A stretch of DNA of 64,000 bases. Source: Spinacia oleracea. Lineage: Eukaryota > Streptophyta > Magnoliopsida > Caryophyllales > Amaranthaceae. The stretch is from NCBI RefSeq assembly GCF_020520425.1, contig NC_079490.1, forward strand, positions 1,116,001 through 1,180,000. The letters run 5' to 3'. Below the pieces are notes generated by a model. The model ran no database searches, was not told where the DNA came from, and was given only the letters and a program-made list of their open reading frames with translations. Shown here piece by piece: positions 7,701-38,810 of the stretch (position 1 is its first letter; each line of letters begins with the position of its first letter). The position numbers were made by a program, and so were the translations under genes.

Positions 7701-9701
7701 AAGTTCTACTTAATTATTATTATTTTTTTATAAAAAAATCGAACATATTTATCTCATTCAAACGACAACCAGAGACATCGCTCGAGCCACACACTAGTTA
7801 TAATTTATATATAATCAATTTAATAAATAAATTTTTGTCAAAGTAGTCAATTTGTTAAAAGACGTGTAGTCACCTGTCTTAGTCGGTGGTCGTCCGGTTC
7901 TGCAACGCCTCGGATACGGATGCGTCTTGGTTCCGAGAACCGGTCGACGAAGCAAAGAGTTGTTATCTGGATTACCAAGATCATTATAAGTGTCATAATC
8001 ATAAATTCTTTCATAATCTTGTCTTTCTCCTTTCCCATTGCCTCTCAAACTCGCAAGATCTTGTTCACGTAAACTCTTTAATCCAATTGGGGTTTGTGAT
8101 GGTAAGTAACCCTGTAATTTTGGGATCAAATTATAATTAGAAATTATCATAATATTAAAAATAAAAATAGGATAGACATAATAATAGGGTGATGATAAAG
8201 GTCGCAAGTTGCGACAACATTTAGTTGTCGCAATCTTACGTATAGGAGTTTAATTGGTACATCATCAGAATATGCATCATCAGAATATTTTAAGTTGTCA
8301 TGTAGGATATGCATCATCAGAATATGTTTACAATCAATATAATATTTTTACTATGAAATTATGTAAATAAGGTAGTCAATATAAAGAAAAAAACAAATTA
8401 GAATAAAAATAAAAATAAAAATCTACCTGTTTTGTAACATTTATAATAGATTATATAAGTTAAATATTTTAGTTTCCAATTTAAATCATGACACATAAGA
8501 ATGTCATGTCATCATTATAACACGGTTTAAAGGTCACATGTTGCGACCTTTATCATTTTCGCTAATGATATTATTTTATAAGTACATTTTTTAGCTAGGC
8601 AATAGACACCTAATATTATATTAATTTATAAAGAATTGATATATTTTCACGTACCTTATTTGTGAAGAATATTCTTTTTTCAGGATTGTCAAACTTAGAA
8701 TGCACCCAAGATTCACAAGTGACCTTAACAACACCTTCAGGCAAGCCTTCAACGACGATATCTTTAACGTACATTTCTTTCCGATGCTCATTCGTGACCA
8801 AGATTGCGCCGAGCTTTCCGAAATTCCCGTGTACCGGAAGCTTCGCCTCGTACTTGGTTTCATTCGCCTCGTCTTTTAAGGTGATGTTTAGTTTTGCCGG
8901 GGCTCGAACCGGTGTCTTCTTATCCAACGTTGTTCCTAACACTATAAAAGCACCCAACATGAAGATCAATACATCATTGTAGGAATAACAAAAACAAATG
9001 CACTAAAAAACTTCCATAGGGACCATAGATATATGTTTTTTTTTTTTGGAAAGTGGTGTGTGGTTAAGAAAACTCATATTGTAGCAATTAAGTACAACGT
9101 CACATAGACATGATAGTGGGACCAGTATCTTGAACAGTTTTACGAGAGGAGACCAGTAGAAAAATTAAGCAATATAGTACAAAATTTATACAAATATGCT
9201 CAAATTTTAGGGGGGACTGGAACTATAAAATACAATGCAGAATTTTCAGGCGGGGAGCCCAGTCCCACACCCCCAGGCCATTAGGAAGATCCGCCAGTGG
9301 AGGCACGTGCGTTGTCGCTATATCAAAACGATTTTTCTCGAAACACTTATATATATTATCTGGATCTACCACAGTTCAATTAAAATTTAGTAACGCCCTC
9401 CCTCCGCCTCCTCATTTGTACGTGACTGCAGGGAGTATCGTGACTTCTGAATCACGAAAACTCCGCAGAACAACTATTTATAAACGGAGGGAGTACGTTA
9501 CAATGCATGGTAGTTAGTGTAACGAGTAACGAGGAACATACTTGGATCGGCGTCGGAGCTAACAAGCTCTAATTGAAGAGCATTGCCAAAAAAGATATCT
9601 GAAATTGAATCAATCCCTTGACCTAAACCAATGTTCTTCAAGAATCCAGTAGCAGTTAATTGCACCGTAACAATTGCTCTTACACTAATATTTTTAGCCA
9701 T
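1715..9701 (-). CDS. Type-2 13-lipoxygenase without transit peptide (LOX-A)
   Basis: Lipoxygenases add O2 to linoleic/linolenic acid; 13-LOX products feed jasmonate and green-leaf-volatile synthesis. Exons in gene order: 9542-9701, 8655-8941, 7874-8111, 6269-6577, 5572-5657, 4569-4679, 3829-4136, 2901-3167, 1715-2474. All joins keep phase and give 841 aa. An N-terminal PLAT/LH2 domain (about 15-150) is followed by the catalytic domain. Iron ligands are present: His494 and His499 (HQLISH), about His691 and Asn695 (HAAVN), and the C-terminal Ile of PNSISI. The Ser-Phe pair in 'ETSF' is the usual 13-LOX signature (9-LOX have Thr-Val). The protein starts [13 protein letters not shown], directly at the PLAT domain, so no plastid transit peptide is seen, unlike LOX-B. 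A TATA box lies 135 bp upstream. Introns are filled with MITEs. Exon calls are by splice consensus and homology pattern, not transcripts. Confidence 0.92.
2517..2773. mobile_element. Degenerate Stowaway-like MITE in LOX-A intron 8
   Basis: The right end reads 'GCGAGTATTAAAAGACGGAGGAAG' followed by TA. It matches the intact element at 38113-38371, including the interior motif about a transfer from 'tgatatttt' to 'gacgaatctaacaagatc'. The left terminus has decayed to a 'cGCAACGTTTG' remnant. The element ends about 40 bp from the exon 9 acceptor. Confidence 0.55.
3484..3820. mobile_element. hAT-type MITE at the LOX-A exon 7 donor
   Basis: A 337-bp GC-rich element (many GGGCCGGGC units) begins TAGAGGTGATCAA and ends TTGATCAGGTCTA. 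It is flanked by a perfect 8-bp duplication GCACATAC at 3476-3483 and 3821-3828, typical of hAT transposons. On the minus strand the TSD is GTATGTGC, and its GT is exactly the exon 7 splice donor (3828-3827). A second copy of the donor octamer therefore sits at the far end of the element. Confidence 0.88.
4177..4517. mobile_element. Mutator-like MITE family A, copy 1 (LOX-A intron 6)
   Basis: A 341-bp element with inverted ends ATGATAAAGGTCGC..., flanked by ATGAAATT (4169-4176; 4518-4525). Two more copies occur at 8187-8561 and 30054-30401; the third has a perfect 9-bp TSD, which points to a Mutator-type mobiliser. Removing the element and one TSD copy would leave an intron of only about 82 bp. 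Confidence 0.8.
4745..5120. mobile_element. hAT-type MITE (LOX-A intron 5)
   Basis: A 376-bp element with terminal inverted repeat TAGACCTGGTTAT / ATAACCAGGTCTA and a perfect 8-bp TSD CTCAAAAC (4737-4744; 5121-5128). The left half carries reiterated GGGTC/GCGGGTC subterminal motifs. Its terminus TAGACCTG is shared with elements at 3484 and 30558. Confidence 0.9.
5797..6257. mobile_element. Stowaway (Tc1/mariner) MITE (LOX-A intron 4)
   Basis: A 461-bp element with ends CTCCCTCCGTTTC and GAAACGGAGGGAG and TA duplications at 5795-5796 and 6258-6259. The TIR extends into 'aaaatgtttgttacg', and a second copy of that motif lies internally near 6200. The right end lies only 8 nt beyond the exon 4 donor GT (6268-6267). 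Confidence 0.9.
6610..7117. mobile_element. Mutator-like MITE with hairpin-bearing TIRs (LOX-A intron 3)
   Basis: The inverted ends are GCTACATCGCTGTCCACC... and its complement, continuing through a GGGTATGGA block. Each TIR contains its own small palindrome CGCTG-TCCAC-CAGCG. The element is flanked by a 10-bp direct repeat CATAACTAAT (6600-6609; 7118-7127). The interior holds degenerate repeats of 'tactgtcattgttgtat'. The left end is about 32 bp upstream of the exon 4 acceptor. Confidence 0.75.
7253..7475. mobile_element. CACTA-type non-autonomous element, degraded
   Basis: Starts CACTACAATAAATTG and ends in a mutated 'aaattctctaacaagtattg'. The interior phrases (gacgggattt, cgtcataaaaga, gacattaag) match the intact CACTA MITE at 36933-37211 in LOX-B. 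It lies in LOX-A intron 3. Confidence 0.65.
8187..8561. mobile_element. Mutator-like MITE family A, copy 2 (LOX-A intron 2)
   Basis: A 375-bp copy with ends GGTGATGATAAAGGTCGC and GCGACCTTTATCATTTTCG. The flanks are near-matching TAATAATA/TAATGATA. It carries an internal duplication around 'gcatcatcagaatat' that explains its extra length over copies 1 and 3. Confidence 0.8.
9123..9305. repeat. Dispersed ~185-bp repeat, copy 1
   Basis: Shares 'cttgaacagttttacga', 'aattaagcaatatagta' and 'aagatccgccagtgg' with copies near 13640-13820, 43497-43655 and (inverted) 51638-51824. The last copy has hAT-like ends CAGGGGCGG/CCGCCACTG, so this family is probably a hAT MITE. It lies in LOX-A intron 1. 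Confidence 0.55.
9400..9494. mobile_element. Stowaway MITE remnant (LOX-A intron 1)
   Basis: A short segment between 'ccctccctccg' and 'aacggagggag' followed by TA. The right end is typical of Stowaway; the left end and interior are decayed or deleted. Confidence 0.45.
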
Positions 9702-21028: not shown

Positions 21029-21832
21029 TGTTGTGATTAAAGCGAAAATTAGAACAAACTTATCTGATTCGATGAACTGAACGAAGAACAATTGTTGCGT
21101 CGTGGACACCCACTGTCCTAAAAGACGATTCCGCGCTACCTCCCGGTGCAGTAGAACAGAATGCGGTCGCCCTCCAGGATTAGCGCAACTCCGACGTTGT
21201 GTGCACTCACAAAGCCGGATGGAGTCAGAACGTATGCCCAAAACCGAGAGCAATTTTGTGTGAGAGTAAGAATGTGTTTTCGTATTTTGTGTGTATGATT
21301 TTCTGTGTGAAGGGAACTGAAACTCTGATTTAAATAATTAGAAGGAAAGCATTGCAACAGACAAAAACGGCTGAGGGAATGAATGTTGCAACAGCCAAAA
21401 ACGGTCAGAGACATTGAATGTAGTAACGGACGTAATTAATGGTAATTAATCCAACGGTTACGTAATCAATACAGATTCCCGTAACAATGACTTAAGCAAA
21501 ACGGTCCAGTTACCAAAAAGAATAGGGTTGACCCACAAAACCCACCCCACGCCCGCGAACCGCATTCCCAAGTCCCAAGTCCCAAGTCCCAAGTACCAAG
21601 GCCCAAGGCCCAAGGCCCACGGCCCACGGCCCGCGGCCCGCGGCCCGGCCCGGCGCGCGCGCGCGTGTGTGTGATGTGTCCACCCATACCATTCTCACAC
21701 TTTCTTAAACAAGAGTTACACTCATTCCCCAATTAATAAACAAGAGGAATATGAAGAGTTTTTCCAATGTGGGACTCTTGAATTTTCACTCACCCTTTTT
21801 TCCTTTGTGTTTCCCAATGAGAATTTCCAACA
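21029..21832 (-). repeat. Copia 3' LTR (left on the plus strand)
   Basis: An 804-bp LTR, TGTTGGAAATTC... on the minus strand, ending ...ATCACAACA. It contains a heptamer array (CCCAAGT) followed by a GGCCC/CG-rich run and (CG)n(TG)n at about 21545-21672. This array is about 48 bp longer than in the partner LTR. Short ORFs here are not genes. Confidence 0.95.
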
Positions 21833-22392
21833 ATCCCCCACAGGTTCGAATATGCGGAAAAGAAAGAAAAGAAAGGAGAAGGATATTGGTTTTGGGCAAA
21901 CAAAACAATTGAATAGGTGTCAATGTCTTTCGACTTGAATTAACACTTAGTGACATTTAAGCTATGATCTCTTTCCTACCAAGTGACTTTCGTATTGAAC
22001 TTGATAGGGAGATAGAAACTCGTCACTTAAAGCACGCAACTGAATATGTATGACATTCTGACTCCGCGAATAAAGTGACGCCTTATACTGGCCATACGAC
22101 CGACCTGGATATGCTCATAGGTGCTCTAGAGAATAGCCCACATCGCAATTCTCATAGGAAGCGGCCACACTTCCACACCTACGTAGGTGAATCCCATCAA
22201 GTGTGAGCTACATTCACACCACCAAACATATGGTATGGGTTCATTAAGAGCCGTATGCTCAACCTCTTTCCTATTGTAGCAAGCACATTATAACATCTAG
22301 GGGATGGACAAAAAATAAAATTTTGTGCTTCCGAATTATAACAATAATGTCGTCCTTTGAACTCTGTGAGTAGGAGTTCATTATTTTACAAT

Positions 22393-23867
22393 TCATTCAA
22401 CGGGCTTCAGGCCCATCCCTTCCGATGTTTCCAAAACTAGTTTTCTACATAGGCCTTTCGTTAACGGATCCGCAATGTTCATTTCAGACTTTACATAGTC
22501 TAGTGATATCACCCCACTTGACAACAATTCTTTGATGGCCTTGTGCCTCAAACGAATGTGCCTTTTCTTCCCATTGTAGGCATGGTTGTTTGCCACAGCA
22601 ATAGCCGCTTGCGAATCACAATGAAGTGCAACTGAAGGAGCTGGCTTCCCCCACAGCGGAATATCTGCAAGCACATTTCTCAACCATTCTGCCTCATGAC
22701 CTGCCAATTCAAGAGCAATAAACTCAGATTCCATAGTAGACATAGCAGTACAAGATTGTTTACAAGATTTCCAAGACACAGCTCCACCCCCTAGGGTGAA
22801 AACATAACCACTGGTAGAGTTAATTTCATCATTGCCAGAAACCCAGTTAGCATCACAATAGCCTTCCAAAACTCCTGGAAACTTGGAGTAGTGCAAACTC
22901 CAATCCATGGTACCCTTAAGGTACCTGAGCAATCTCTTCAAAGCATCCCAATGTTCATGACTTGGGTTATGAGTATACCTGCTTAATCTACTCACAGAAT
23001 AAGCAATGTCAGGTCTAGTGTAGTTCATCAGAAACATAACACTACCAATAATCTTAGCATATTCAGATTGGCTAACAGGATCACCATTATTTTTCCTTAA
23101 GTGGATGCTTGGATCATAGGGAGTCCTAACTGGATCGACGTCAAAAGAGTTAAATTTTTTAAGTAACTTTTCAACATAGTGAGCTTGGCTAAGACAAATG
23201 CCATTTGGAGTTCTCTTGATTTTCACTCCTAAAATCACATCTGCCTCACCCATATCTTTCATTTCAAACTTAGAACTTAGAAAACTTTTTGTCTCATTTA
23301 CTCGATCCAAATTAGTCCCAAAAATTAACATATCATCCACATAAAGACAAATAATCACACAACCATCAGAATCATGCTTAGAGTAAACACAAGAATCACC
23401 TTCATTTACATGGAACCCATTACCTGTCATAGTCTTGTCAAATTTGTCATGCCATTGCTTTGGAGCTTGCTTAAGCCCATACAAGGACTTGACTAATTTA
23501 CAAACCTTATTCTCTTGACCAGGAACAACAAACCCTTCCGGTTGAACCATGTAAATTTCCTCATCCAAATTACCATTTAAGAATGCAGTTTTAACATCCA
23601 TTTGATGCACAACAAGATCATGAATGCAAGCAAGAGCAATCAAAGTTCTAATAGTAGCAATTTTAGTGACAGGAGAATAAGTATCAAAATAATCAATACC
23701 ATGCCTTTGGGTGAATCCCCTTACCACAATTCTAGCCTTATACTTGTCAATGGATCCAGTGGATTTTAATTTTTTCCTAAAGATCCATTTACAAGTAATG
23801 GGCTTGCAACCCCTAGGCAGATCAACCAACTCCCAAGTATTGTTACTTAGGATTGACTGAAGTTCAC
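22393..23867 (-). pseudogene. Copia reverse transcriptase-RNase H, severed from its start
   Basis: The downstream half of pol, separated from integrase by the solo LTR (TSD at 23863-23867). It has the RT core YVDDMLIFG, the conserved '[19 protein letters not shown]' block, and a C-terminal RNase H with ESEFIAL and CDSQAAI. It is open to its natural stop at 22393. It has no start codon of its own and should not be translated from the element promoter. Confidence 0.92.
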
Positions 23868-26600
23868 TGTAATCCCCCGTAAATTTATAAAGTTTATTAA
23901 CATATGTTAACGTATAGTTTTTTATATTTAAATGAAATTGGTCGATTTTAGTAATAAATATATATTTAATGTATATTTATTTTATTTAAATGAATTATAA
24001 ATATTTTAATGATTTATTGAAATCAAACACTTTAGAATCATAATTCGAAAACGAATTGAAACATAGAAACACTTCGGTTTTGGAAAAGTATTTCTAATCG
24101 GGTTTGAATTTAAATACTCTCAAATTGGAAAAGGAATCTTAATCTTAGCCCAATTGTTATAGCCCATAAAGTAAATAAACCCCCTAAACCCAAATTTTAC
24201 CCACAACTAATTCTCTCTCCTCACTCAACTTCACACACTCACGTGAAACCCTCATTCTCTTTCACGTTAATTCTCTTTTCTTCCCTCTCAGGCAACCACC
24301 ACCGCCGCCGGTCAAGCAGCAGCCGCCGCCGTTGCTCTCCTCCGACGCCCGACTTCCACCCATCGTCGCCGGTAACCTCTTCTCTCCCCTCGTATTTCTT
24401 TCTTCCTCTCTCTCTTGCGTTTTGCTCTCCTTACTTGCTTTTTCTTTTCTTTTTACGTGCGACAGCCACCAACAGCACCACCGCCACGTCGCCGCCCAAC
24501 CTGCATCGCTGCGCCGCCGCGTTCCTTGCCCACACCAACCAACGTCCTCCCTTGTTCTCCCTCTTGCTTGACGGAACTCCTTTTCGTTCTTCATATCCCG
24601 CAAACACGAGTCAGTCGCAGCCGCCACCGCTGCGCCACCATCGTGCCTTGCCTGTCAGCTGCCGATTGTTCTGCTGGCGCCGTCTCAGACCACCGGCCAG
24701 CCACCCTTTTGTCTCTCTTTTTGGTTAATTCTTAAACCCTAAACTAATTAATGAATTGAATTACGTTTTAATGATTTGATTATGTTTCTTGAATTTAAAT
24801 TATAAGTTTTATGATTTGACTATGAATTTCAAGAATTATATGTTTGCATAATTAAATTATTAATTTCAGATTATATAAATGCATTGAAATATTGATTTTT
24901 AATTATTTAAAGTATGAATTTTAAGGTTTTTAATGATTTAAATCATGGTAGGATGTTTAGGAATTATTAAAGTTATTGTTATTATGATTTCAAACATGTT
25001 AATTATGTTTTGGAGTAGTTTGAAAGTAGTTATATTGCTGGAAATTTAAAGTATGATGCTTTGAAGAGTTTTCAACGAATTTCAATAATTAATATAAAAA
25101 TTATGATGCTAGGAAATCAAATATTCAAGTTTCGATATTGGGAAATGTTCTAATTATGTTTAGGAAGGGTTTGAAGCTCCCTAATGTTGCTGAAAATTCA
25201 ATATGAATTGATATGAGTCTATATTGGTTGTTGTTAGGTGGAGAATTCTCCGTAGGCGACTTTTGAATTATTAAAGTGGTCTTGCAGTTTGTTTACACAA
25301 GGTACGTACATACCTGTGTGCTTGGAATGTGTGCTAATTGTTGAAACCATGTGTATTATTGATGAACCTGGTTATGTTAATGTTGTTGATGAACTTAGTC
25401 GGGTTGAAACTGCATGTTTGATACTGTTGGATGAACATATTAAACCTTTATTGCATTTTGAGGATTATAACATGTTAGTATGGAAGATTGATGCAAACAT
25501 GTTTGATTGGGAACACTAGATTGTTTAGTATATAATTCAGATCAGTTAATTGTTGTTCCCTTTTTAGCTTTTCACTACTTTATGAGGGCGGAGGACCTCA
25601 TTTAGTAAGTTGAAACCTTATACCCATATTCAGGGGTTGATTAGTATTAAAGAAAAGATTGGAGTTAATTGGAATGAGTCTTGTTAGATGCCTTTGTGAT
25701 CACTTACTCAATTCCAAGATAAAAACAGTTATAAATAAATGTGAGTTGCATGCCTTATGTGATTGTTGAGTCATAACAGGGTGTCAATTTGTAAATCATG
25801 TAAAGTGAAACTGAGTAGCAATAGCTTTAGACTGTGCACGTCTAAAGTGACGGACAAACAGGAGTTGGGGTTCATGGTGGTAGCCCATGGCCTTTCATTC
25901 GGACCGGATTGATCACCGCGTCCTATTTTCAGTCAAACGTTCCTCGATATCGCAGGTCACTGAGGTTACGGAGTCGCGCCCGTACCTCGCCTAGCTAGAA
26001 AACTCGGTCCATTGCCTATTTAAATTAAAATAATGTTATTGTTATAAAAAGTCTAGTCCAGTCTAGCCTAGTCTAGTTAAGTATGGTCGTTAGATTATCA
26101 TGCTTTGTTTGCCCTTAATTATGTTTAATAGTATCATGTTAGGATTATTATTGCTTTAGTATGTAGTACTCAGCTTTGCTGATTACGTGCTTGTTTGTGT
26201 GTGTTGATCATGGCTATGCCTTATTGATCCTGTGATGACCCATTTCTGGTGAGCAGTCTCTAAGGATCAATAAGCATTGCCCATCTACAGGTTTGAAGAT
26301 GATGCATCATTGGGATCGGGATTAGAGAGCTTGTAGTTCTATTTGTTTAATTAAGTGATTCAATTTGTTAACTTGGATTTGAAACTTGTCGTACTATTCG
26401 TATTTCCTTATTTCAGTTGATTATTTTGGACCTAATATGTAATAGATTAATTATGAACCCAAAAGTTAGTTTTATGTTTTCCGCTGCAAAATTCTGAATA
26501 AGCCGTACGTTTTTACACGGGCGATAATACTTTGATAATTCCCTACAGTTATATTTAAAAAGAGGTTATTTTAGAAAATGGGAATTGTCGGGGTGTTACA
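23868..26600 (+). mobile_element. 2.7-kb solo LTR nested in the copia element
   Basis: Begins TGTAATCCCCCG and ends GGGGTGTTACA (TG...CA with short inverted ends), and is flanked by a perfect 5-bp TSD TTCAC (23863-23867; 26601-26605). No gag or pol domains are present, so it is best read as a solo LTR left by recombination. Plus orientation is inferred from the 3'-like end ('tttccgctgcaaaa' then 'ggggtgttaca') and a pyrimidine-rich leader near 24200. Long plant Gypsy elements often have TGTAA-type LTRs. A GC-rich tract at 24290-24700 gives spurious ORFs on both strands. Confidence 0.85.
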
Positions 26601-29066
26601 TTCACTATCTATTGCCTCTTTCCAAAACACTGCATCAACAGATTTCATAGCCTCTTCATAGGTCCTAGGATCATCTTCCAAAATAAAGACATAAACAAAG
26701 TCATCATCAATCAAGTAAGGTTCAGTTAAGAAAGCAGTAATAAAATCATCACCATAACTGGTTTCCTTTCTTGCCCTCTTGCTCCTCCTTGGCTCCAATT
26801 CAGAATTCACATCAGAGGTGGGAGGAGCAACAACAGGCATACTAGAAGAAGTGCTAGAAGAAGGCACATCATTGATACAAGATATTTTCAAAGGAAATAC
26901 TGTTTCAAAAAACTCGGCATCTCTTGCCTCAATGATGTTACCACCTGCATAAGAATTGTTAGCACCTTTAACAAGAAAACGATATGCAGCACTTTGGTAA
27001 GCATAACCAATAAAAATACAATCAACCGTTTTAGGACCAATCTTGTCCCTTTTGAAGCTGGGTATAGCCACCTTTGCTAGACACCCCCACACTTTCAAAT
27101 AACTTAGGTTAGGTGCCCGACCCTTCCATATTTCGTATGGAGTCTTGTCTAGCTTCTTGTGAGGTACCCTGTTTAAAACATGACAAGCAGATAATATAGC
27201 TTCCCCCCACATGTTATCAGAAAACCCAGAACTAATAAGCATAGAATTCATCATGTTCTTCAATGTTCTGTTCTTCCTTTCAGCAATCCCGTTCTGCTCG
27301 GGTGTGTAGGGAGCCGTTGTCTCATGAATGATCCCATTCTGCTCACAAAATGCCTTAAGAGTGTTAGGGTCATATTCACCACCCCTATCACTCCTAAGTC
27401 TCTTGATCTTCCTATCAAGTTGGTTCTCCACTTCGGCCTTGTATTTGAGGAACATTTCCTCAGCCTCATCTTTTGACCTGAGAAGATAAACCATGGTGAA
27501 TCTTGAGCAGTCATCAACAAAAGTAATATAATACCTTTTACCACCCCTGCTCTCATAATTTTTAAAATCCCCCAAGTCACTATGAACAAACTCTAGTACT
27601 TTAGTTTGTCTATCTATTGATTTAAATGGCTTCTTTGCAAACTTGGCCTCAACACATACTTCACATTTTGCAAAATCAGTTTTAGAAAAACTGGGAATCA
27701 AGTTAAGTTGTTTAAGCCTTTTAATTGAAGCAATGTTAAGATGACCCAACCTTGCATGCCATAAATCAATAGACTCAGCAATATAAACAGAAGAAGTACT
27801 AGCATTCTTATTCATAATTTCAAGTTTGACATCAAGAGTAAATAAACCCCCATTACAGAAACCCTTTCCCACAAACTCCCCATTATGAGTAATAACAAGC
27901 CTATCAGAATCAAATGAAAGCTTCAATCCAGCCTTCATTAGCAAGCTACCAGAAATCAGGTTCCTACGCATTTCTGGAACATGCAACACATTGGTAAGAG
28001 TAATAAGTTTTCCAGAGGTAAGAGTGAGAACGATCTTCCCTTTGCCTTGAACAGTTGCAGAAGCTGAATTACCCATGAAGACATTTTCACCATCAGTTTT
28101 TTCGTAGGTAGTGAACATGTCTTTGTTGGTGCAGATATGTCTCGTTGCTCCAGTATCAACGATCCATTCAGCAACATTACCTGTCAAGTTAGCTTCTGAA
28201 ACAACAGCAACAAAATGGTTAGGATTAGAAACTTCATTAGCTTCAGCAAGGTTGGCTTGGTTCTGATCCGACTTCTTCTTGGATCTGCAATCTACAGACT
28301 TGTGACCAGTTTTCCCACATTCAAAACACTTGCCCTTGAACTTATACTTCATTGGTTTCCCTTGAGGCTTGAAAGGACTTCCCTTTCCCTTAAACTTTTC
28401 AGAATATGCATGAGGCTTAGGTTCTACAAGGTTAGCCTAAGCAGACCCGGAAAACACAGATTGACCCTTATCCTTAATACGATTTTCCTCCTCAATTTTC
28501 AGGTGACCTACAAGCTCCTCTAAGGTAAGGTCCTTTTTCTTATGCATTAACTGATTACGAAAATCTTTCCAAGAGGGTGGGAGTTTCTCAATTAAAACTA
28601 TAGCAAGGGTAATATCACAAATACTCAAACCCTCGGCAGCCATAGCAATGCAAATATTTTCATAAGCATGAATCTGATCAATAATTGGTTTATCATCTTG
28701 GACTTGAAAAGCTAACCACTTACTGACACAATAACGCTTAGTACCAGCATCATCAGTTCCATATTTCTTTTCTAATGCATCCCAAATATCCCTAGCATGA
28801 TTAAACCCCATATAGATATCAAGCAAAGTATTCGACATATGATGCAGCAACATGCCCTTACATGTCCTATCATCTTTAGCAAATTTCAACTCAAAAGCAT
28901 GCAATTCAGTTTCATCATCAGGTTCGACAACGTCATCAAGCACATAAGCAATCTCAATTTGTTCTAAATAGAATCGCATCCTAACAGCCCAACGTTTATA
29001 ATTCTTGCCATCAAGAGGTTCTAACTTAGACATATCAGGAATCATGAATTTGGAAGTCAAAGCCAT
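26601..29066 (-). pseudogene. Copia gag-protease-integrase, broken
   Basis: Gag starts with ATG at 29066. An in-frame TAG (28439-28437) follows about 209 codons and probably arose from CAG. The same frame continues through a CCHC zinc knuckle (CFECGKTGHKSVDC), an aspartic protease (WIVDTGATRHIC) and an integrase with HHCC (HARLGH...CEVC) and DDE regions. The frame is then cut at 26601 by the solo LTR insertion. The stop lies upstream of the knuckle, so it looks like decay rather than a programmed gag-pol stop. Confidence 0.9.
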
Positions 29067-29084
29067 AATAATCGTCTTTTAGAT

Positions 29085-29840
29085 TGTTGTGATTAAAGCG
29101 AAAATTAGAACAAACTTATCTGATTCGATGAACTGAACGAAGAACAATTGTTGCGTCGTGGACACCCACTGTCCTAAAAGACGATTTCGCGCTACCTCCC
29201 GGTGCAGTAGAACAGAATGCGGTCGCCCTCCAGGATTAGCGCAACTCCGACGTTGTGTGCACTCACAAAGCCGGATGGAGTCAGAACGTATGCCCAAAAC
29301 CGAGAGCAATTTTGTGTGAGAGTAAGAATGTGTTTTCGTATTTTGTGTGTATGATTTTCTGTGTGAAGGGAACTGAAACTCTGATTTAAATAATTAGAAG
29401 GAAAGCATTGCAACAGACAAAAACGGCTGAGGGAATGAATGTTGCAACAGCCAAAAACGGTCAGAGACATTGAATGTAGTAACGGACGTAATTAATGGTA
29501 ATTAATCCAACGGTTACGTAATCAATACAGATTCCCGTAACAATGACTTAAGCAAAACGGTCCAGTTACCAAAAAGAATAGGGTTGACCCACAAAACCCA
29601 CCCCACGAACCGCATTCCCAAGTACCAAGTACCACGGCCCACGGCCCGCGGCCCGGCCCGGCGCGCGCGCGCGTGTGTGTGATGTGTCCACCCATACCAT
29701 TCTCACACTTTCTTAAACAAGAGTTACACTCATTCCCCAATTAATAAACAAGAGGAATATGAAGAGTTTTTCCAATGTGGGACTCTTGAATTTTCACTCA
29801 CCCTTTTTTCCTTTGTGTTTCCCAATGAGAATTTCCAACA
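29085..29840 (-). repeat. Copia 5' LTR (right on the plus strand)
   Basis: A 756-bp LTR almost identical to 21029-21832. It differs by a C/T near 29186 and a contracted GC-rich array. Internal sequence begins 'ATCTAAAAGACG' only about 18 bp before the gag ATG. I see no TGGTATCAGAGC primer-binding site for initiator Met tRNA. Confidence 0.95.
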
Positions 29841-29845
29841 ATTAA

Positions 29846-30053
29846 TTCCCTATAATTATATAGATGTGTATGTATTTCGTTTATCGTTGGATTAAGTCAA
29901 GTAGTTCTTCATAGTACGTAGTGTAATTTTGTTATATTTTTCCTCCTATTTTGTTTAAGAAATAAGTTCGATAGAACTACGATCCTTTTTTTTGCAAGAG
30001 AAGTTTTACTTTGCATATTCAAAGTTTTGTGAATAGGACGAGATTTACCATTT
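29846..30053. other. Short spacer, no gene recognised
   Basis: AT-rich spacer between the copia TSD and the next MITE; no ORF or motif seen. Confidence 0.5.
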
Positions 30054-30401
30054 GGACGATGATAAAGGTCGCAAGTTGCGACAACATTTAGTTGTCGCAA
30101 TCTTACGTGTCGCAGTTTAATTGATACATATAAGCGCCACGTAGGCTATGCGTCATCATAATTAATATTTTTACTATTAATTCAATATTTCTACTACGAA
30201 AATATGTATATAAGGTAGTCGAAATAAAAAAGGAAAAAAAATTAGAATATTAAGATTTTCCAACCTTTTTTTATAACATGTATAATAAAAAAATATAAGT
30301 TAAATATTTTAATTTCCAATTTAAATCATGACACATAAGCATGTCATATCATCATTGTGACACGGCTTAAAGGTCGCATGTTGCGACCTTTATCATTTTC
30401 G
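30054..30401. mobile_element. Mutator-like MITE family A, copy 3
   Basis: A 348-bp copy with a perfect 9-bp target duplication TTACCATTT (30045-30053; 30402-30410) and ends GATGATAAAGGTCGC / GCGACCTTTATCATTTTCG. This best-preserved copy fixes the family boundaries and the 9-bp TSD. Confidence 0.9.
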
Positions 30402-30557
30402 TTACCATTTTGGCCTTCGGGTAGTGGGCCCTTTATCGTTGTCTCTCCACTTGATGACAACAAAGTAGCAATAAACATTGTGTCTCGTCTTATAATGTGC
30501 CCATTGCAAGTGTGGCAATTTTATTGAAACCGGAGTAGTAGTTGTTAACTACTACAG

Positions 30558-31201: not shown

Positions 31202-34200
31202 TCAGATAGAGATGCTATTTGGAACACCCATAGCAGTGACTCCAGGATGGGAGAAAGGTTTCAACAATTCATAAGGCACAATTCCTGCACCATATCTATT
31301 CTTTAACTTCTCGTCAGCATTCCTTTCGTCAATAATCCCCTCCAACTCCTTTAACCTTCCATTAAACTTCTCGAAAGCCGCCTTAATCTTAGGTTCAGTC
31401 TCCCAAGCCGACTCCATAGTCTCGCCGAGATACTCCTCATCGGGTGAATGGCCCGAGAGCACGTCCAAAATAGCCATAACTCTAGTAGCCTGTATTTGCG
31501 AAGGGTAGCTACGAAGAAGCGTTTCCTCAGGCTTTTCTATGAAGTGTTTCCATTCTTCAGGAGTGGGGTCTTCTGTAGGCATCTTAGCCCTGATGACGGT
31601 AGGCCTATTAGGGAAGTAACCTGCATAGGCATATTTTCCAAATTTTGATGATGATGATGGTGGTGATGATAATAACAATAATACTCCCTCCGTTCCGGAA
31701 TACTCGACCCGGTTTGACCGGCACAGAGTTTAAGGGACTTGAATTGACTTATTTAATTTAATAGATAGTACTCACTCTGTCCCATAATATAGTGCCCGTT
31801 TGACCAAAATCACGGTTATTAAGGTAAAGGATAACATTGATAATAAAAACAATAATGATTTGTACTTTCAAGATAAAGTACATGTTAATTGGCAAAAATG
31901 GAGAGTTAAATTATAGATTAAAGGTGTGTACATAATAAATAGGCCTAAAAAGGACAAAAATCAAGCACATGGGTTGAATAAAAGTCAAAAAGTACAATTT
32001 TCAAAGTAAAAATTAATGGTTTAAAATAGAAATAGGCACATCATTTAGGGACACCATTTTAGAAAAACAGACACTATATTATGGGACGGAGGGAGTAGTT
32101 GATAGTGGGGTATTATTTTAATATAGTTAGTGGAAAATGTGTAAAAGGGTGGGGTTGGGGGAGAGTAGGGGTTGAATTTTTAACTATTTTTTGTATAGAA
32201 TAGGGGTAGGTAGGTTAATAGGGGTGGAGTGAGAAATAATATAATATATATTGTTAGAATATTTCCATTTTTAGAAACAGGTCAAGTATTAAGGGACGGC
32301 CCGATAAGGAAAACAGGTCAAGTATTCCGGGACGGAGGGAGTAATAATAGTAAGATGAGTTGAACAGAACTGAATGTTTATGAACTGAATTAAATGCTAC
32401 TAGTTGAATTATTAAACTTAACTGAAAATAAGGTCATGAAACTGAAAATAAACCAAAAAGACCAGGTAGGTCCTTAATTACCTGCATAGGCATATTGTCC
32501 AAAGTTAACAGCTGCGTGGTGCCCTGAAGTCACCCATATTATGGTGGTGACAATTTGGATAAGGTCCTCATTTGTTTTGAGGGTTGGCCACCATGGCTCG
32601 TCTTTCTTATCTCCATGCCCTACGGTTCTTACCTCCGTCCACCAAGCTTGAAGCTCTTGATCTGACTCTACGAGGCTCGAATCTGTGTAGTAATGGTTCA
32701 CATAATCTGTCACCCATTGCTTGATGATAGCCCATAAGTCTAGGCCATCAGCCGCGTATGGATAATCCTCTATTGTTAGCTTTACTCCATGTGGTGATGT
32801 TGGATCTTCAGTTGCCAAACCCCTATAAGATTATAATGTGATTCTTCTTGGTATATATTTTCAAACTATCAACTTTTTTCTACTTGAAATTGGATATACT
32901 TAGGGTTAAAGATTACAATAGAGTCTATGTAAATAGTACTTCCTCCATTTTTTTTTATTATTGCACCATCTACATTGGGCACAAAAATTAAGAAAGGTGG
33001 TAAAAGGCGAGAGATTGACAAAAATACCCATGTGATTAAGTACAAGTTGTAGGTAAAGAACAAGTGGGGTTTGGTCCCCACCACCCATACAAGGATAAAA
33101 ATGTCATTTCATGTAGGTAAACTTGCTAAAAAAGGAAATGGTGCAATTAATATGCAACTTCCGAAAAAGGAAAATGATGCAATAATAAAAAAAAATGGAG
33201 AAAGTATATGTTAAGAAAATTTCTTAAATGGAGGTAATGGGCGTGTTCGGCGGTAGCTTTTGAGGTAGCGGGTAGCGTTTTGACCGAGTCAAGACGCTAC
33301 TTGTAAAATTTGTAAGTGTTTGGCGAGGTAGCGATTTAGGTAGCGGTTAGCGGTAGAGGTAGCGGTTGAGTGGCTTTTATCAAACGTTAAAATTAGTAGC
33401 GTTTAAGGTAGCGGGTAGCGTTTGACAAATTTATAATAAAGTTTTAAATAATATTTCACCTTTTATTTTATTTTATAATATCAACCGCTACTTTTACCGA
33501 ACACTCATATCAGTTACCCGCTACCTTTGACAGCTAACCGTTACCCGCTACTATTGACCGCTACCCGCTACTCCAACCGTTACCCGCTACTGAACCGCTA
33601 CCCGCTACCCGCTACCGCTACTTTTACCGAACAGGGCCAATACATACTAGCTAGGAGTTTAAACGAGCTTAGCTACCTGCTAATAAGGTCAGCTGGTAAG
33701 GCTTCATGATCAAATCGCCACTCCAAACCATAGATGACAGAGCTAATCTCACAAGCGTACTTCCCTGGTGAGAAGGAGCCCTCGATGATACCACCTGCAT
33801 TAATCAAAGCTAGCCGAGCAAGGGCGTTGATCTCTATCGTGTATCGGAAATGAGGGTGCAATAGCCTATATATTGGGTGCATTACACTCAGCTGGCGATT
33901 TGCTGCTATTATGTAAGGTTCTGTGCAGCAATGAGTTCTTAGCCTACACAATGCACGAGTACAACATAAAAACCAATGAAACACGGGGGTACGTATAATG
34001 TAGAAAAACTCAAATTTGTAAGTTAGAACATGCCTTTAAATCGGTCAATCCCCTTACTGTAATGCCCTATTTTAGGGGTTTGGGGATGCAACGTGGTCCT
34101 CAACGGGGGTTCGAGGAAAACAACACCGAACTTTACGGTATCTGTATTCTGGACTATGGTTATCTGTTTGGGCCTATTTTCTGGGTTTTCTGCATCTGTC

Positions 34201-37200
34201 TAGAGAGTATTATGTAAATTCTGTAGGTCATAACCTAGTTGTATTATGTAATGTGTACTCCTCAAGGTTAATTAAAAAAATCTCTCCTCTGCTTGTGGAC
34301 GTAGTTAACACATTGTTAGTGAACCACGTTAAATTTATGTGTTCTTTATTCACGTTATTTATAGTCTTCCTTGCTTCCGTTATAACATTATTTATTTTAC
34401 ACATTGATAGAAAATGTACGCAAGATGTTAATTAAAAATGTAAAAATATGTAGCGTACCAGTGGCTGACAAGTTGATGGTAACCAGAGTCGTGGGCGAGG
34501 ACATGAGCCTTGGCAAGCTTCCAAAGCCAGCCGGAAGTGGCGGTGGTTCCCGGCATATACACTTCCTTCCATTGCGGCTTCCCATCCGTGGGAGGCCGAG
34601 TTAATTCAATAGCTAAAGGTCTTAGAGTTCCTTCGGTAAGAATGAACAAAGTCCGCGATCCATATAAAGTCGTACCCTTGAGCTCCCTAACTTTGTTCAC
34701 GTAAGGCAAAAACATGTCATGGTAATCAATTATGTACAACTTTTTCTCTTTCAATGCTTGTTTAAGTGTTGTGGATCCTTTTATCTGGCTCTCTATGAGT
34801 TCTGTTGTCAAAGCTGATTCTGGTGGGCCATAAATTTTGGGATCCAAATTACTCTTCAGGGGCCATTCCTGCAACACAACAAGAGTGACATATTAACATT
34901 TTTTTACTCCCTCTGTCTCGGAATACTCGACCCGGTTTGACCGGCACAGGGTTTAAGGGATTTGAATTGACTTATTTAATTTAATAGGTAGTAGTTAATA
35001 GTGGGGTATTATTTTAATGTAGTTAGTGAGAGGTGGGTTAAGAGGTGGGGTTGGAGGAGAGTAGGGGTTGAATTTTTAATTATTTTTGTATGGAGTAGGG
35101 GGTAGGTGGATTAGTAGAGGTGGAGTGAGAAATAATATAATATTGTTAGAATATTTCCATTTTTAGAAACAGGTCAAGTATTAAGGGACGGCCCGATAAT
35201 GAAAACAGGTCAAGTATTCCGGGACGGAGGGAGTAGTAGGTAAGAGAAAGAACTCTATTGAACAAACACATTTCATAGGTTAACAAGATTAGCTAAGCAG
35301 ATATACACTTGAGCCACTCCCAAACATTTTGCAGTTGATGGGCTTCACCTTGTGACCTCCAAGTAACAAATTGAGTTATTCACCAACTCCACCAACTTAT
35401 GTTACCAACATGAGTTAGTACATTCGATGGTTACCAACACGAGTTTGTCTGAATGAGTCACAATGACATTTTAAATTACAGATGCAACACGATTTTTTTT
35501 TCTATTGTGTAAGCCTTTTGACCTTTACTATACTAGAAAAGCTATCTATGCTACAAACATAAGAATTATTTGAGTTCTCAAAGCTAGCTTTGTAGATCAT
35601 ACCGTAACAAGTTTGATGCTTAAAGGATTCAAGCCAGCAAGTGTTTGGCGAGAGAACTCCTCATCTCTGAACCAAGAAAACCTATCCCCTGTAAATTAAG
35701 TTGATTACTTTAATTAGTCGAAATTCGTTACTTGGTAAGACCATTATTGAGGGGGATTTATCCATAGTTAAAGATTGATTTAGTTAGAGATAAGTAATTA
35801 GGAATGTTCATACTATCAAATATCTTAGGGAGCTCGAATCGAAGCATATTATCTTCAATATCAGTGACAGCCCTAACGAGCCTAGGTAACATATTTTGCA
35901 AGATTCCATGTTGTTCCAATGCAGGACAATTAATTCCTTCATTGAAGAGCGAATCGATGGCGGTGAAGTACGGAAATCCTTGTTCCGGATCAACCATGGC
36001 CATCTCTAGGGATGGTATTACAGCATGAAGCACCGAGTACACGGTTTTGAACCCGAATTGCGCCTGCTTCACGTCCGAGAATGTTTCGTCTCTAGGCACA
36101 TACACTGTAGGAGATCTGCTCTCCGAACTTGGATCTGCACATTATAAATAGAGCAAATAAATAGCGTGTCATTATTGTATGTTGTATAAATATTTTGATC
36201 CTAAGCAATAATAATTTACGGAAAATATATTCCATGGTATCAGAGCCTATGATAACACAACTAGTTGTATAATAAATCACCTGTCTTAGTAGGACGACGC
36301 CCTGTCCTACAACGTCGAGGATAAGGAAGTTCTTTATTGCCACCCAAATTTGGTCTTGCTAATTCAGGATCTTTGTCTGGATCACCAAGGTCATTGTAAG
36401 TGTCATAGTCGTAAATTCTCTCGAAATTCTTGCGTTCTCCTTTTCCATTCCCTCTCATACTTTCAAGCTCTTTGTCTCTCAACTTCTTCAATCCAATCGG
36501 TGTTTGCGATGGCAAGTATGACTACAAAAACATTACATTGTTGCAAATCAAAATTGGTTAATAATTGTACAACATGCCAATGTAAATAACGAACAAAGTC
36601 ATTACTAGATTACCTACCTAAATTGATATGAATTTAGTATTGCATGACAAAATCACGCGTCAACAAAATGAGGTAACTATAACCCCATTTTTTAGATGGT
36701 AGTAATTGGTGACCGATATTGGTAATTTAATGGCTTATGTTTTAAGAAAAAATCATGTCAGTGTTCATGTCCATGAAAATTCATAAAGTTTCATTATCAT
36801 CGGGCTATATACTACACCTTTAGATATGATGCTGGTAATGGAAATTTACGAAGAAAATTGCATATTTGATGATAAAAGTATAATAAATTTGCATGAATAC
36901 TATTTATGCATGAAATTAAATGAAGAATATATCACTACAAGAAATTGTACTATTGACGACGGGAAATCCCGTCGCGAAAGGCCAATAATCGTTGATTAAC
37001 GACGGGATTTCCTGTCGCGAACCCGTCATAAAAGGGGGCCGTCGTTAATAGAAATCCCGTCGTAAATCCATCGTAAACCCGTCGTAAAAGACATTTGCGA
37101 CGATTATTCCCGTCATTTTTCGGTTGTTAGCCCCGTCGCAAAAGCCTTTTGCGACGGGATTTTTGACCCGTCGTAATTAGGTTGTCGTTAAAGATACAAA

Positions 37201-38810
37201 TTCTTGTAGTGTATTTACATGTACCTTATTAGTGAAGAAAACCCTTTTTTCAGGGTTGTCAAACTTGGCATGAACCCATGAATTGCAAGTAAATTGAACT
37301 GACCCAAAAGGTAAACCATCAAGGAGAATATCAGTGAGATACATCTCTTTGTGGTGTTCATTTTCAACAAGTACGGCACCCACTTCGCCGAAATCCGGTG
37401 GGACGACTAAATCCGCCTCGTATTTCACCAGCCCGTCCTCGGCTTTTAAACGATGGGCGTACCCTTTGATCGTCTTCTTCTCCTTTCCCGTCTCTTCAAC
37501 AACGAAAAATTAGAAGAAAGTTGATCAAATTAATGTCCATTGTCATAAGGCAAAGTCTCGTAGATATGAGTCCGTCTTACAATAACTTATTACTAATTTT
37601 ATATGCACGCGATGTGTGCGAGAGTATATATATAAAAATTAAAATTAGGATTATAAAATAATCATCACAATTCACAAACAATAGTAAAGAAAATAATTTA
37701 CAAAGTTCATCTAATTTTTTTTAATAACTCAGTGTTGTTTGCTATTAATCATGAAAAAGTAAATACGGAGTACTACACTTTTAGTGTATACTTGATGCAT
37801 TTTCAGTAATTCATAACTCTTAATCTTGAAAAATGAATACTTGTGTTATTTGTATTTTTTTTACCAACTAATTGTTGTCACTAAATTGCTTTGATTTTTT
37901 GTTTTTTCAATCATATTGTTTTCCTTAGGAAAGTAGCATAAGTACTTGTTTGATTCGTCTCGAGTGTTAGCTAGCTAGCTTTAAATACATCAAATTTTAT
38001 AGTTTTTACTGATGTGAAAAAACATATTAATGATCAAAGTTGTACAGTACGTGTACATGTACCGTTAAAACAGAAAGATCAGTAAGAAACGGAGGGATCG
38101 AGCTAAGTAGTACTTCTTCCGATTTTTAATACTCGCAACGTTTGTGATTTCCACACTATTCACATATTATACTTTGACTATTGTCGGTGATTTATACGTG
38201 AGTTAAAACATAGTCATGTGAGATCTTGTTAGATTCGTCTTAATATGTATTTTCAAAATATTAACTTCTTATAATTTTTACTTAAAAAGAATTAAAGATA
38301 TTAATGATCAAAGTTGTGCGTAGGTATGCATGAAAGTGACAAACATTGCGAGTAAAAATGAACGGAGGAAGTATTAATTTACTTACTTGGTTGAGCCTCA
38401 GCACTAACAATTTCCAAGAGGAGACTTTTACCAAGCAAGTCACTAATATCATCAAGCCCTCGGCTAACCCCCATATTGGTTAATAAACCACCAACGGTTT
38501 GTTTTACTGAGACAATAGCCTTAACTTTCACAGCTTGTTCACTATCTATGGTGGTTACTGATGATGATAATGATGCTTCAACTCTAAGGCGGCCGCCACC
38601 GCCGCCGTTTCGACCACCGTGACGGCGGCGGTGTGCCCTAGGTGCAACACCACCACCACCACCACCAATAAGAGATGCATTATTGTGTGCCCTAGTAGAT
38701 GAAGAATTGTATAGTTGAACGAAACTCGTTTCGCCTCCGGTAATGAAGGGCTTCCGGAGTGAAAATGGTGATGGGGTTTTGGTGATATTGTTTGTGTATG
38801 TATTCAACAT
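31202..38810 (-). CDS. Plastid 13-lipoxygenase (LOX-B)
   Basis: A paralogue of LOX-A with the same fatty-acid dioxygenase role. Exons: 38387-38810, 37225-37493, 36281-36521, 35814-36134, 35603-35688, 34459-34868, 33677-33943, 32482-32822, 31202-31620; phases agree and give 925 aa. The first ~90 residues are Ser/Thr/Arg/Gly-rich and lack acidic residues, as in a chloroplast transit peptide. PLAT and catalytic domains follow. Iron ligands are His578 and His583 ([11 protein letters not shown]), His775, Asn779 and terminal Ile925. 'EGSF' carries the 13-LOX Ser-Phe pair. Exon 6 corresponds to exons 6+7 of LOX-A. Exon 8/9 is split by an 861-bp intron that LOX-A lacks, within [13 protein letters not shown]. 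The protein is intact only if that intron is spliced. A TATA box lies 61 bp upstream of the ATG. Confidence 0.92.
31684..32341. mobile_element. Stowaway-type MITE (outer) inside the LOX-B gained intron
   Basis: Ends CTCCCTCCGTTCCGGAATACT and AGTATTCCGGGACGGAGGGAG with TA at 31682-31683 and 32342-32343. Its family member at 34907-35233 is uninterrupted, while this copy is split by another MITE at 31771-32095. Confidence 0.9.
31771..32095. mobile_element. Stowaway MITE (inner) nested in the outer MITE
   Basis: A 325-bp element, CTCACTCTGTCCCATAATAT ... ATATTATGGGACGGAGGGAG, with TA at 31769-31770 and 32096-32097. The paralogue at 34907-35233 shows the empty site 'aggtagTAgttaatag' where this copy reads 'agatagTA[insert]TAgttgatag'. 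Confidence 0.92.
33239..33638. mobile_element. MITE with GGTAGCGG subterminal repeats (LOX-B intron 7)
   Basis: A 400-bp element starting GGGCGTGTTCGG and ending CCGAACAGGGCC, an imperfect inverted pair. Many (G)GTAGCGG units lie on the left and their complements CCGCTACC on the right, so the element could form a long hairpin. The flanks share only AAT, so the superfamily is uncertain. Confidence 0.7.
34907..35233. mobile_element. Stowaway-type MITE, intact (LOX-B intron 5)
   Basis: A 327-bp element, CTCCCTCTGTCTCGGAATACT ... AGTATTCCGGGACGGAGGGAG, with TA on each side (34905-34906; 35234-35235). It is the same family as 31684-32341 and lies about 37 bp upstream of the exon 6 acceptor. Confidence 0.9.
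36933..37211. mobile_element. CACTA MITE hugging the LOX-B exon 2 donor
   Basis: A 279-bp element starting CACTACAAGAAATTG and ending AATTCTTGTAGTG with 3-bp TSD TAT (36930-36932; 37212-37214), diagnostic of CACTA/EnSpm. The interior has repeated CGACGGG motifs. Its edge lies about 11 nt from the exon 2 donor (GT at 37224-37223). Confidence 0.93.
38113..38371. mobile_element. Stowaway-like MITE hugging the LOX-B exon 1 donor
   Basis: A 259-bp element, CTTCTTCCGATTTTTAATAC ... ATGAACGGAGGAAG, flanked by TA (38111-38112; 38372-38373). The inner TIR includes 'ctcgcaacgtttg'. Its edge is 12 nt from the exon 1 donor (38386-38385). Confidence 0.85.

Follow-up and report, generated by a model that had tools for sequence, protein, structure and literature searches.

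How did a spinach lipoxygenase gene come by an 861-bp intron that its paralog in the same region does without? The window, by which we mean the whole stretch of 64,000 nucleotides analyzed here from the genome of Spinacia oleracea (C4:1116001-1180000), carries two lipoxygenase genes, LOX-A and LOX-B, both on the minus strand. The original prediction placed 861 bp in LOX-B that LOX-A lacks, and this is what we found, with LOX-B interrupted at 31621-32481 and exon 9 of LOX-A running unbroken. It is rarely possible to say where a gained intron came from, and gain by exon duplication, by break repair, and by transposon insertion are mostly treated as separate models. The LOX-B intron keeps readable traces of all three, together with stacked layers that differ in age, and spinach is a vegetable for which genome and RNA resources exist. 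The LOX-B model was built by hand by homology, and the two genes and the borders of the intron are laid out as follows (here and below, a slash in a motif marks the splice junction):

31202-38810, minus strand: LOX-B gene, nine exons, introns all GT-AG
38387-38810, 37225-37493, 36281-36521, 35814-36134, and 35603-35688, minus strand: LOX-B exons 1 to 5
34459-34868, 33677-33943, 32482-32822, and 31202-31620, minus strand: LOX-B exons 6 to 9
31621-32481, minus strand: putative gained intron in LOX-B, 861 bp, phase 1, between GQYAYA and GYFPNRP
32480-32506, minus strand: donor-side repeat copy (original, exonic), containing CAG/GT
31619-31645, minus strand: acceptor-side repeat copy (derived, mostly intronic), containing TATGCAG/GT
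1715-9701, minus strand: LOX-A gene, nine exons in the model, introns all GT-AG, 842 codons with the stop
1715-2474, minus strand: LOX-A exon 9, unbroken, with the homolog of the repeat (the empty site) at 2132-2158

Spliced according to the model, the LOX-B coding sequence comprises 926 codons including the stop and encodes a lipoxygenase of 925 residues, so that the frame is restored as predicted. Its C-terminal part matches PDB lipoxygenases and retains the C-terminal SISI; the iron-ligand residues, among them the Asn and the C-terminal Ile, lie there and in a second conserved stretch, with roles assigned as in the soybean lipoxygenase. We take LOX-B to be a 13-lipoxygenase of type II, and its N-terminal extension looks like a plastid signal. 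Synonymous divergence between LOX-A and LOX-B is saturated across the whole alignment and therefore gives no date; in exon 8 alone, Ka/Ks is 0.10 at a Ks of 1.98.

The borders of the intron carry the first clue to its origin. A direct repeat of 27 nt, 25 of them identical, stands at both borders with a spacing of 861; thus, the repeat of about 25 bp in the original prediction is real, if slightly longer than described. The donor reads CAG/GTAATT and the acceptor TATGCAG/GTT. Taken in register, donor and acceptor match at 25 of 29 positions, compared to 3 to 12 of 29 for the remaining introns of LOX-A and LOX-B, and the longest exact word common to the 80 nt around donor and acceptor is 17 nt here versus 5 to 7 elsewhere. 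All 16 introns of LOX-A and LOX-B entered this control, and a comparable border repeat was absent from the 15 others. An AGGT-bearing segment of the exon is thus found at both borders, and the GT of its first copy and the AG of its second serve as splice sites in the gene model, leaving the protein unchanged. The duplicated AGGT-bearing exon end that had been proposed as the source of both sites is indeed present, although LOX-A reads AGGG at this place. Between the copies lies filler that is not homologous to the exon, bracketed by the direct repeat of the exon end. Judged from the gene model, the 861-bp segment would be a spliceosomal intron that yields an intact lipoxygenase when spliced at the two repeat copies.

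The second clue is the filler, whose layers are the following:

32345-32473, minus strand: terminal fragment of a Tourist/PIF-Harbinger-like MITE, with the terminus GG at 32473 and TAA before it
31646-31681, minus strand: (TTR)n(TCA)n simple repeat, located between MITE-derived sequence and the acceptor copy; the (TTR) stretch resumes at 32344-32354
31684-32341, no strand: outer Stowaway-like MITE, with flanking TA, interrupted by the inner MITE
31770-32095, no strand: inner Stowaway-like MITE, with flanking TA
34907-35236, no strand: clean sibling of the outer MITE, in LOX-B intron 5

The MITE within a MITE that had been predicted is present, and without its inner guest the outer element measures 330 bp, the same length as the clean sibling. 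A further element lies in LOX-B intron 7 (33238-33640); it carries repeats of the GTAGCGGGTAGCG type, which occur in inverted orientation at the opposite end (GTTCGGCGGTAGC ... CGCTACTTTTACCGAAC). With the outer Stowaway-like MITE removed, the insert shrinks to ~201 bp, made up of the 27-nt copy and ~174 nt of non-exon DNA in the order TAA, one MITE end, simple repeat, acceptor copy. Within the intron itself, the exon-derived part is confined to the last 25 nt.

No source of the filler was found within the 64-kb window; a search of the whole genome (894,210,420 bases in 242 contigs) identified it. The filler occurs at 38 places including itself (37 further), and many family matches to the MITE fragment end at ~32361. 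The family terminus is GGCCCTGTTCTTTTTGGCTTAATTTCAG, and in 13 of the 19 copies fetched it follows TTA or TAA. Both ends were found in two of the 19 (906 and 753 bp), with TAA flanking each side. These two both-ended copies (L026, 1507-2412; L030, 1506-2258) have TTCAG-rich arms around an (AAT)n center, and copies of the family differ visibly in repeat number. The family thus has a 3-bp TWA target duplication and terminal inverted repeats, and the LOX-B fragment has one end only; we assign the family to the Tourist/PIF-Harbinger-like MITEs. A complete element with its own target duplication at both borders was not seen in the LOX-B intron, which holds one terminus, the TAA of the family, and a border repeat of 27 bp. 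This 27-bp repeat and the simple-repeat tail raised the possibility of a retroposon with a long target-site duplication, which was rejected on the inverted ends and TAA target duplications of the filler family. The filler combines a simple repeat with a diverged end fragment of a Tourist-like MITE that is present in many copies.

These observations point toward an origin in break repair. In our model, the exon of LOX-B would have been broken at or near TATGCAG/GT and repaired with filler (the Tourist-like MITE end and the simple repeat) and a patch duplication of 27 nt of the exon end, the re-synthesis of which placed AGGT on either side of the filler. The donor would then be the GT of the first copy, with an intronic half (AATTAA) from the filler, and the acceptor would be the AG of the second copy, with the protein unaltered. 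Two Stowaway MITEs, the second inserted into the first, would later have enlarged the intron to 861 bp. We consider this account as a whole, a spliceosomal intron of the LOX-B lineage made from filler and exon re-synthesis and later swollen by MITEs, to be probable. What the filler was before the Stowaways arrived, a MITE fragment and a simple repeat, suggests break repair with patch duplication over plain tandem duplication of the exon. Among the points that stand against it, the 27-bp repeat exceeds the 4 to 12 bp reported, as a range and not as a strict definition, for staggered-break introns in Daphnia, the start of the filler resembles the exon after the acceptor somewhat beyond what shuffled sequences give (14 of 1,000), and the MITE fragment looks older than the repeat, by a nonsignificant margin given below.

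The presence of only one transposon end may also mean that the element inserted later, into a short spacer, and was then cut short by a deletion. Filler capture and duplication would then be separate steps: 27 bp and a short spacer were duplicated and were spliced or tolerated, a Tourist-like MITE inserted into a TAA of the spacer and lost its other end, and the Stowaways followed. The MITE terminus does sit directly after TAA, as in much of its family. However, neither a second terminus nor a second TAA was seen in the intron, and without the MITE the spacer consists of the simple repeat, the (ATT) part of which is similar to internal sequence of long MITE copies. This two-step sequence of events is possible, but we regard it as somewhat unlikely.

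Considerably less plausible is the duplication that Rogers' model envisages, in which a segment of ~200 bp of exon with AGGT is duplicated head to tail, the stretch from one AGGT to the other becomes the intron, and only the last 27 bp has escaped later divergence or replacement. It would account for AGGT on both copies and for the exact frame, and two faint resemblances speak for it, one between the first 40 nt of the donor-side filler and the exon downstream of the acceptor (the 14 of 1,000 shuffles mentioned above) and one between the simple repeat and the upstream exon (96 and 110 of 1,000 shuffles under two settings). The body of the intron, however, is a genome-wide MITE family and not exon, and when the whole 136-nt body was compared with the downstream and the upstream exon, it aligned no better than shuffles did (302 and 393 of 1,000 reached the score). 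Moreover, one old duplication would not be expected to leave a 27-bp block of 93% identity next to sequence in which all similarity is gone. These shuffle tests lend no support to a longer tandem duplication of the exon. We did not find an intron body derived from duplicated exon but a MITE fragment and a simple repeat with 25 nt of exon origin, and since only these last 25 nt are exon-derived, the earlier claim that the intron was created by exon duplication, in Rogers' sense, is not sustained.

As predicted, retention of the insert would be costly: the protein would end at residue 788, with the loss of 137 residues and the C-terminal Ile, and each of five alternative acceptors tried inside the insert truncates the protein as well, at 787 to 811 residues. 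With a small splice score trained on the other 15 introns of LOX-A and LOX-B, the donor scores 8.99, equal to third best among those introns, and the acceptor 6.33, near their middle. The filler appears to have improved the donor, from 5.75 for the uninterrupted exon (CAG/GTTACT) to 8.99 (CAG/GTAATT). Two features count against fully efficient splicing, namely, an AG at 31944, inside the inner MITE, which scores 7.99 and thus better than the proposed acceptor, and the pyrimidine-poor last 50 nt upstream of the acceptor (26% T, 26% C). Exon 9 past the intron has nevertheless stayed intact. Only 1 of 30 residues that are invariant in the other 11 rows of the alignment is altered, and the chance that an unconstrained exon 9 would be undamaged is 0.29 at 2% divergence and 0.005 at 8.5% (assumed indel rates), or ~0.007 at 8% neutral divergence under the assumptions stated. 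The intact exon 9 speaks for splicing without proving it.

If the insert were unspliced in the plant, LOX-B would be broken, a pseudogene with a truncated 788-residue product, and splicing at this intron is indeed a prediction of the gene model. This reading is improbable. The remaining exons and splice sites are all intact in the model, and the figures for an unconstrained exon 9, 0.29 or 0.005, argue against it. In a tree of the last 250 residues (12 rows, 3 of them PDB proteins; 4 of 9 inner branches without resolution), LOX-B groups with LOX-A and 8qdr (99/98), and the branch of LOX-B (0.19) is shorter than that of LOX-A (0.33).

The model also requires that the intron was gained in LOX-B and not lost from LOX-A. 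A search of the genome for the Pfam lipoxygenase family gave 81 exon matches among the best candidates scored; eight full LOX loci were found besides LOX-B (LOX-A and L009-L015). In all eight, the exon runs uninterrupted through the site of the intron. Eight fragment loci (L016-L023) were examined in addition, five of which do not span the site; the three that cover it (L018-L020) have no insert, although the stretch in L018 contains a stop, and at least four further weak fragment loci lie outside this count. The relatives with an empty site are thus paralogs from the same genome.

Furthermore, the acceptor copy reveals its template. Comparison of the flanks with the exon of the paralog gave 25/27 matches between the acceptor copy and the LOX-B exon, 20/27 between the acceptor copy and the LOX-A exon, and 22/27 between the two exons. 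At all five sites where the LOX-B exon differs from LOX-A, the acceptor copy has the LOX-B state, which indicates that it was copied from LOX-B's own exon after the split of LOX-A and LOX-B; at both sites where the repeat copies differ from each other, LOX-A agrees with the exonic copy. The two changes in the acceptor copy, AAA for AAC and AAA for CAA, would turn the iron-ligand Asn and the Gln of NFGQY into Lys. Since these codons belong to a motif kept by 12 of 12 lipoxygenases compared, the acceptor copy is evidently not read as protein and appears to be decaying as noncoding DNA. The empty site in all other LOX loci and the derivation of the acceptor copy from LOX-B's exon together argue for a gain in the LOX-B lineage, as the original prediction had it. 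An ancient origin of the intron in plant LOX genes, with loss from all the others and with the border repeat added later by local conversion, is very improbable: intron turnover is real at these loci, LOX-B itself being without another intron that the eight others keep, but by our reading of the LOX tree of this genome (several forks of which are open) the intron would have to have been lost about three times independently, and a separate duplication would be needed, and the acceptor copy holds LOX-B states at five of five informative sites.

The other intron change concerns the junction VDE/ALE:

4137-4568, minus strand: LOX-A intron 6 (VDE/ALE), 432 bp, at a position common to the seven other full LOX loci
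34757-34758, minus strand: LOX-B junction without the VDE/ALE intron, inside exon 6, joined without a gap

The intron measures ~84 to 213 nt in the seven other full loci, and LOX-A intron 6 consists mostly of a repeat also present at 8183-8561 and 30052-30417. By comparison with the eight full loci that keep it, LOX-B has lost this intron precisely; one LOX-B intron was thus lost exactly and another gained. A more specific reading, which we advance tentatively, unites these changes. A single repair event may have drawn on two sources, with the exon supplying both splice dinucleotides through the 27-bp patch duplication and the captured MITE end supplying the intronic half of the donor (CAGGTTACT to CAGGTAATT), so that the intron was spliceable from birth, and the same gene, having precisely lost an intron kept by every other full LOX locus found, would have held its nine exons by exchange.

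Some further features of these loci may be mentioned. The last exon of L013, a locus of the 9-LOX type, has an interruption of ~83 nt with GT-AG ends at HPTDE/IYLGQRE (about 1456-1545); it is absent from the other full LOX loci, each of which gives a single match there, and is possibly another gained intron. Fragments L016 and L017 show sequence similar to the region of this interruption. They were first suspected of sharing the LOX-B intron, as they start near the same residue, but look like 9-LOX-type exon fragments with no exon 8 before them; a LOX-A query gave no match to either at the threshold used. These last-exon fragments (L016, 2100-2600; L017, 1450-2050) lie on two chromosomes and share non-LOX flanks, which gives them the look of gene parts that a mobile element has transported and multiplied. 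Just downstream of LOX-B, direct repeats of ~800 bp (21029-21834 and 29085-29842; 93.5% identical) enclose long minus-strand open frames, and 21029-29842 is probably an LTR retrotransposon. No LOX relative was confirmed when viral contigs were scanned.

The nesting of the layers sets their order: the MITE fragment and the repeat copy, then the outer Stowaway, then the inner one. The MITE fragment matches its family consensus at 47 of 60 positions (78%), compared to a median of 0.967 (range, 0.85 to 1.0) for the 19 other copies, and its closest copy is L035 at 0.85. The outer Stowaway matches the clean sibling in intron 5 at 292 of 326 positions (90%); for the sibling itself, the genome search gave 1355 candidate places, of which 39 others were scored and proved 96 to 97% identical to it. 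For the inner Stowaway, 39 other copies were scored as the best of 332 candidates, and its identity to each of them is ~98%. The divergences of the layers (78% to the consensus, 90%, and 98%) suggest an age of millions of years. At an assumed 6.5e-9 substitutions per site per year, the two changes in 25 intronic sites of the acceptor copy would correspond to 12 My (95% range, 1.5 to 44 My). The MITE fragment looks older than the repeat, although the difference is not significant (47/60 versus 2 changes in 25; Fisher p = 0.21). With such an estimate and with older insert layers that are 10 to 22% diverged, the description of the intron as recently gained is not established. Orthologs from beet, quinoa, and wild spinach could reveal the steps, and also whether a mixed exon-plus-transposon repair product was spliced at once.

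The literature searched on intron gain, lipoxygenase gene structure, and spinach lipoxygenase gave no listing of the LOX-B intron, but parallels to it exist. That direct catches of such gains in plants are few, as had been stated, is questionable, since a review of 2012 counts 188 gains by tandem duplication, many of them imprecise, in a set of organisms that includes Arabidopsis and Oryza (PMC3443670), and a gain by tandem duplication of AGGT is described in the potato RdRp gene (PMC4974935). The Rogers model and the potato intron share with LOX-B a duplicated AGGT, a precise gain, and an unchanged protein, and the potato case, like LOX-B, departs from the pure model (PMC4974935, PMC3443670). 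In the pure model, however, the intron body is the duplicated segment, whereas in LOX-B this applies to the last 25 nt only, and the potato case has RNA-Seq (PMC4974935), whereas LOX-B splicing is predicted from the gene model.

The repair pathway that we infer has its closest precedents in Daphnia, where staggered-break introns are reported to have repeats of the adjacent exon of 4 to 12 bp (see also the review PMC3443670); in the one genome examined here, the repeat is 27 bp, and the filler is a fragment of a MITE end, unlike in the Daphnia introns so described. In rice, a study of insertions gives tandem duplications attributed to patch repair as the most common kind, with a share of 70% initially that falls beyond ~125 bp (PMC7971508). 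Introners resemble the LOX-B intron in combining a transposon body with a duplicated target that gives splice sites (PMC9860276, PMC3443670), but the border repeat, at 27 bp, differs from the 3-bp target duplication that the MITE family makes, a single terminus is present, and the Introner survey reports none in land plants (PMC9860276). The model of Rogers and Bendich (2025; PMC11782384) describes the LOX-B case: a fragment enters a break, error-prone repair creates direct repeats, and, as in LOX-B, GT and AG inside these repeats are used for splicing. In the portion of its table concerned, repeats of at least 25 bp all belong to plastid introns and have 72 to 84% similarity, whereas the LOX-B intron is nuclear and its repeat has 93%.

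In sum, the LOX-B intron works like an exon duplication, a break repair, and a transposon insertion, and fits none of the narrow definitions fully, since its body is not exon, its repeat is long for break repair, and this repeat is not the target duplication of the element. Taken together, the described routes of intron gain cover what the LOX-B intron shows.
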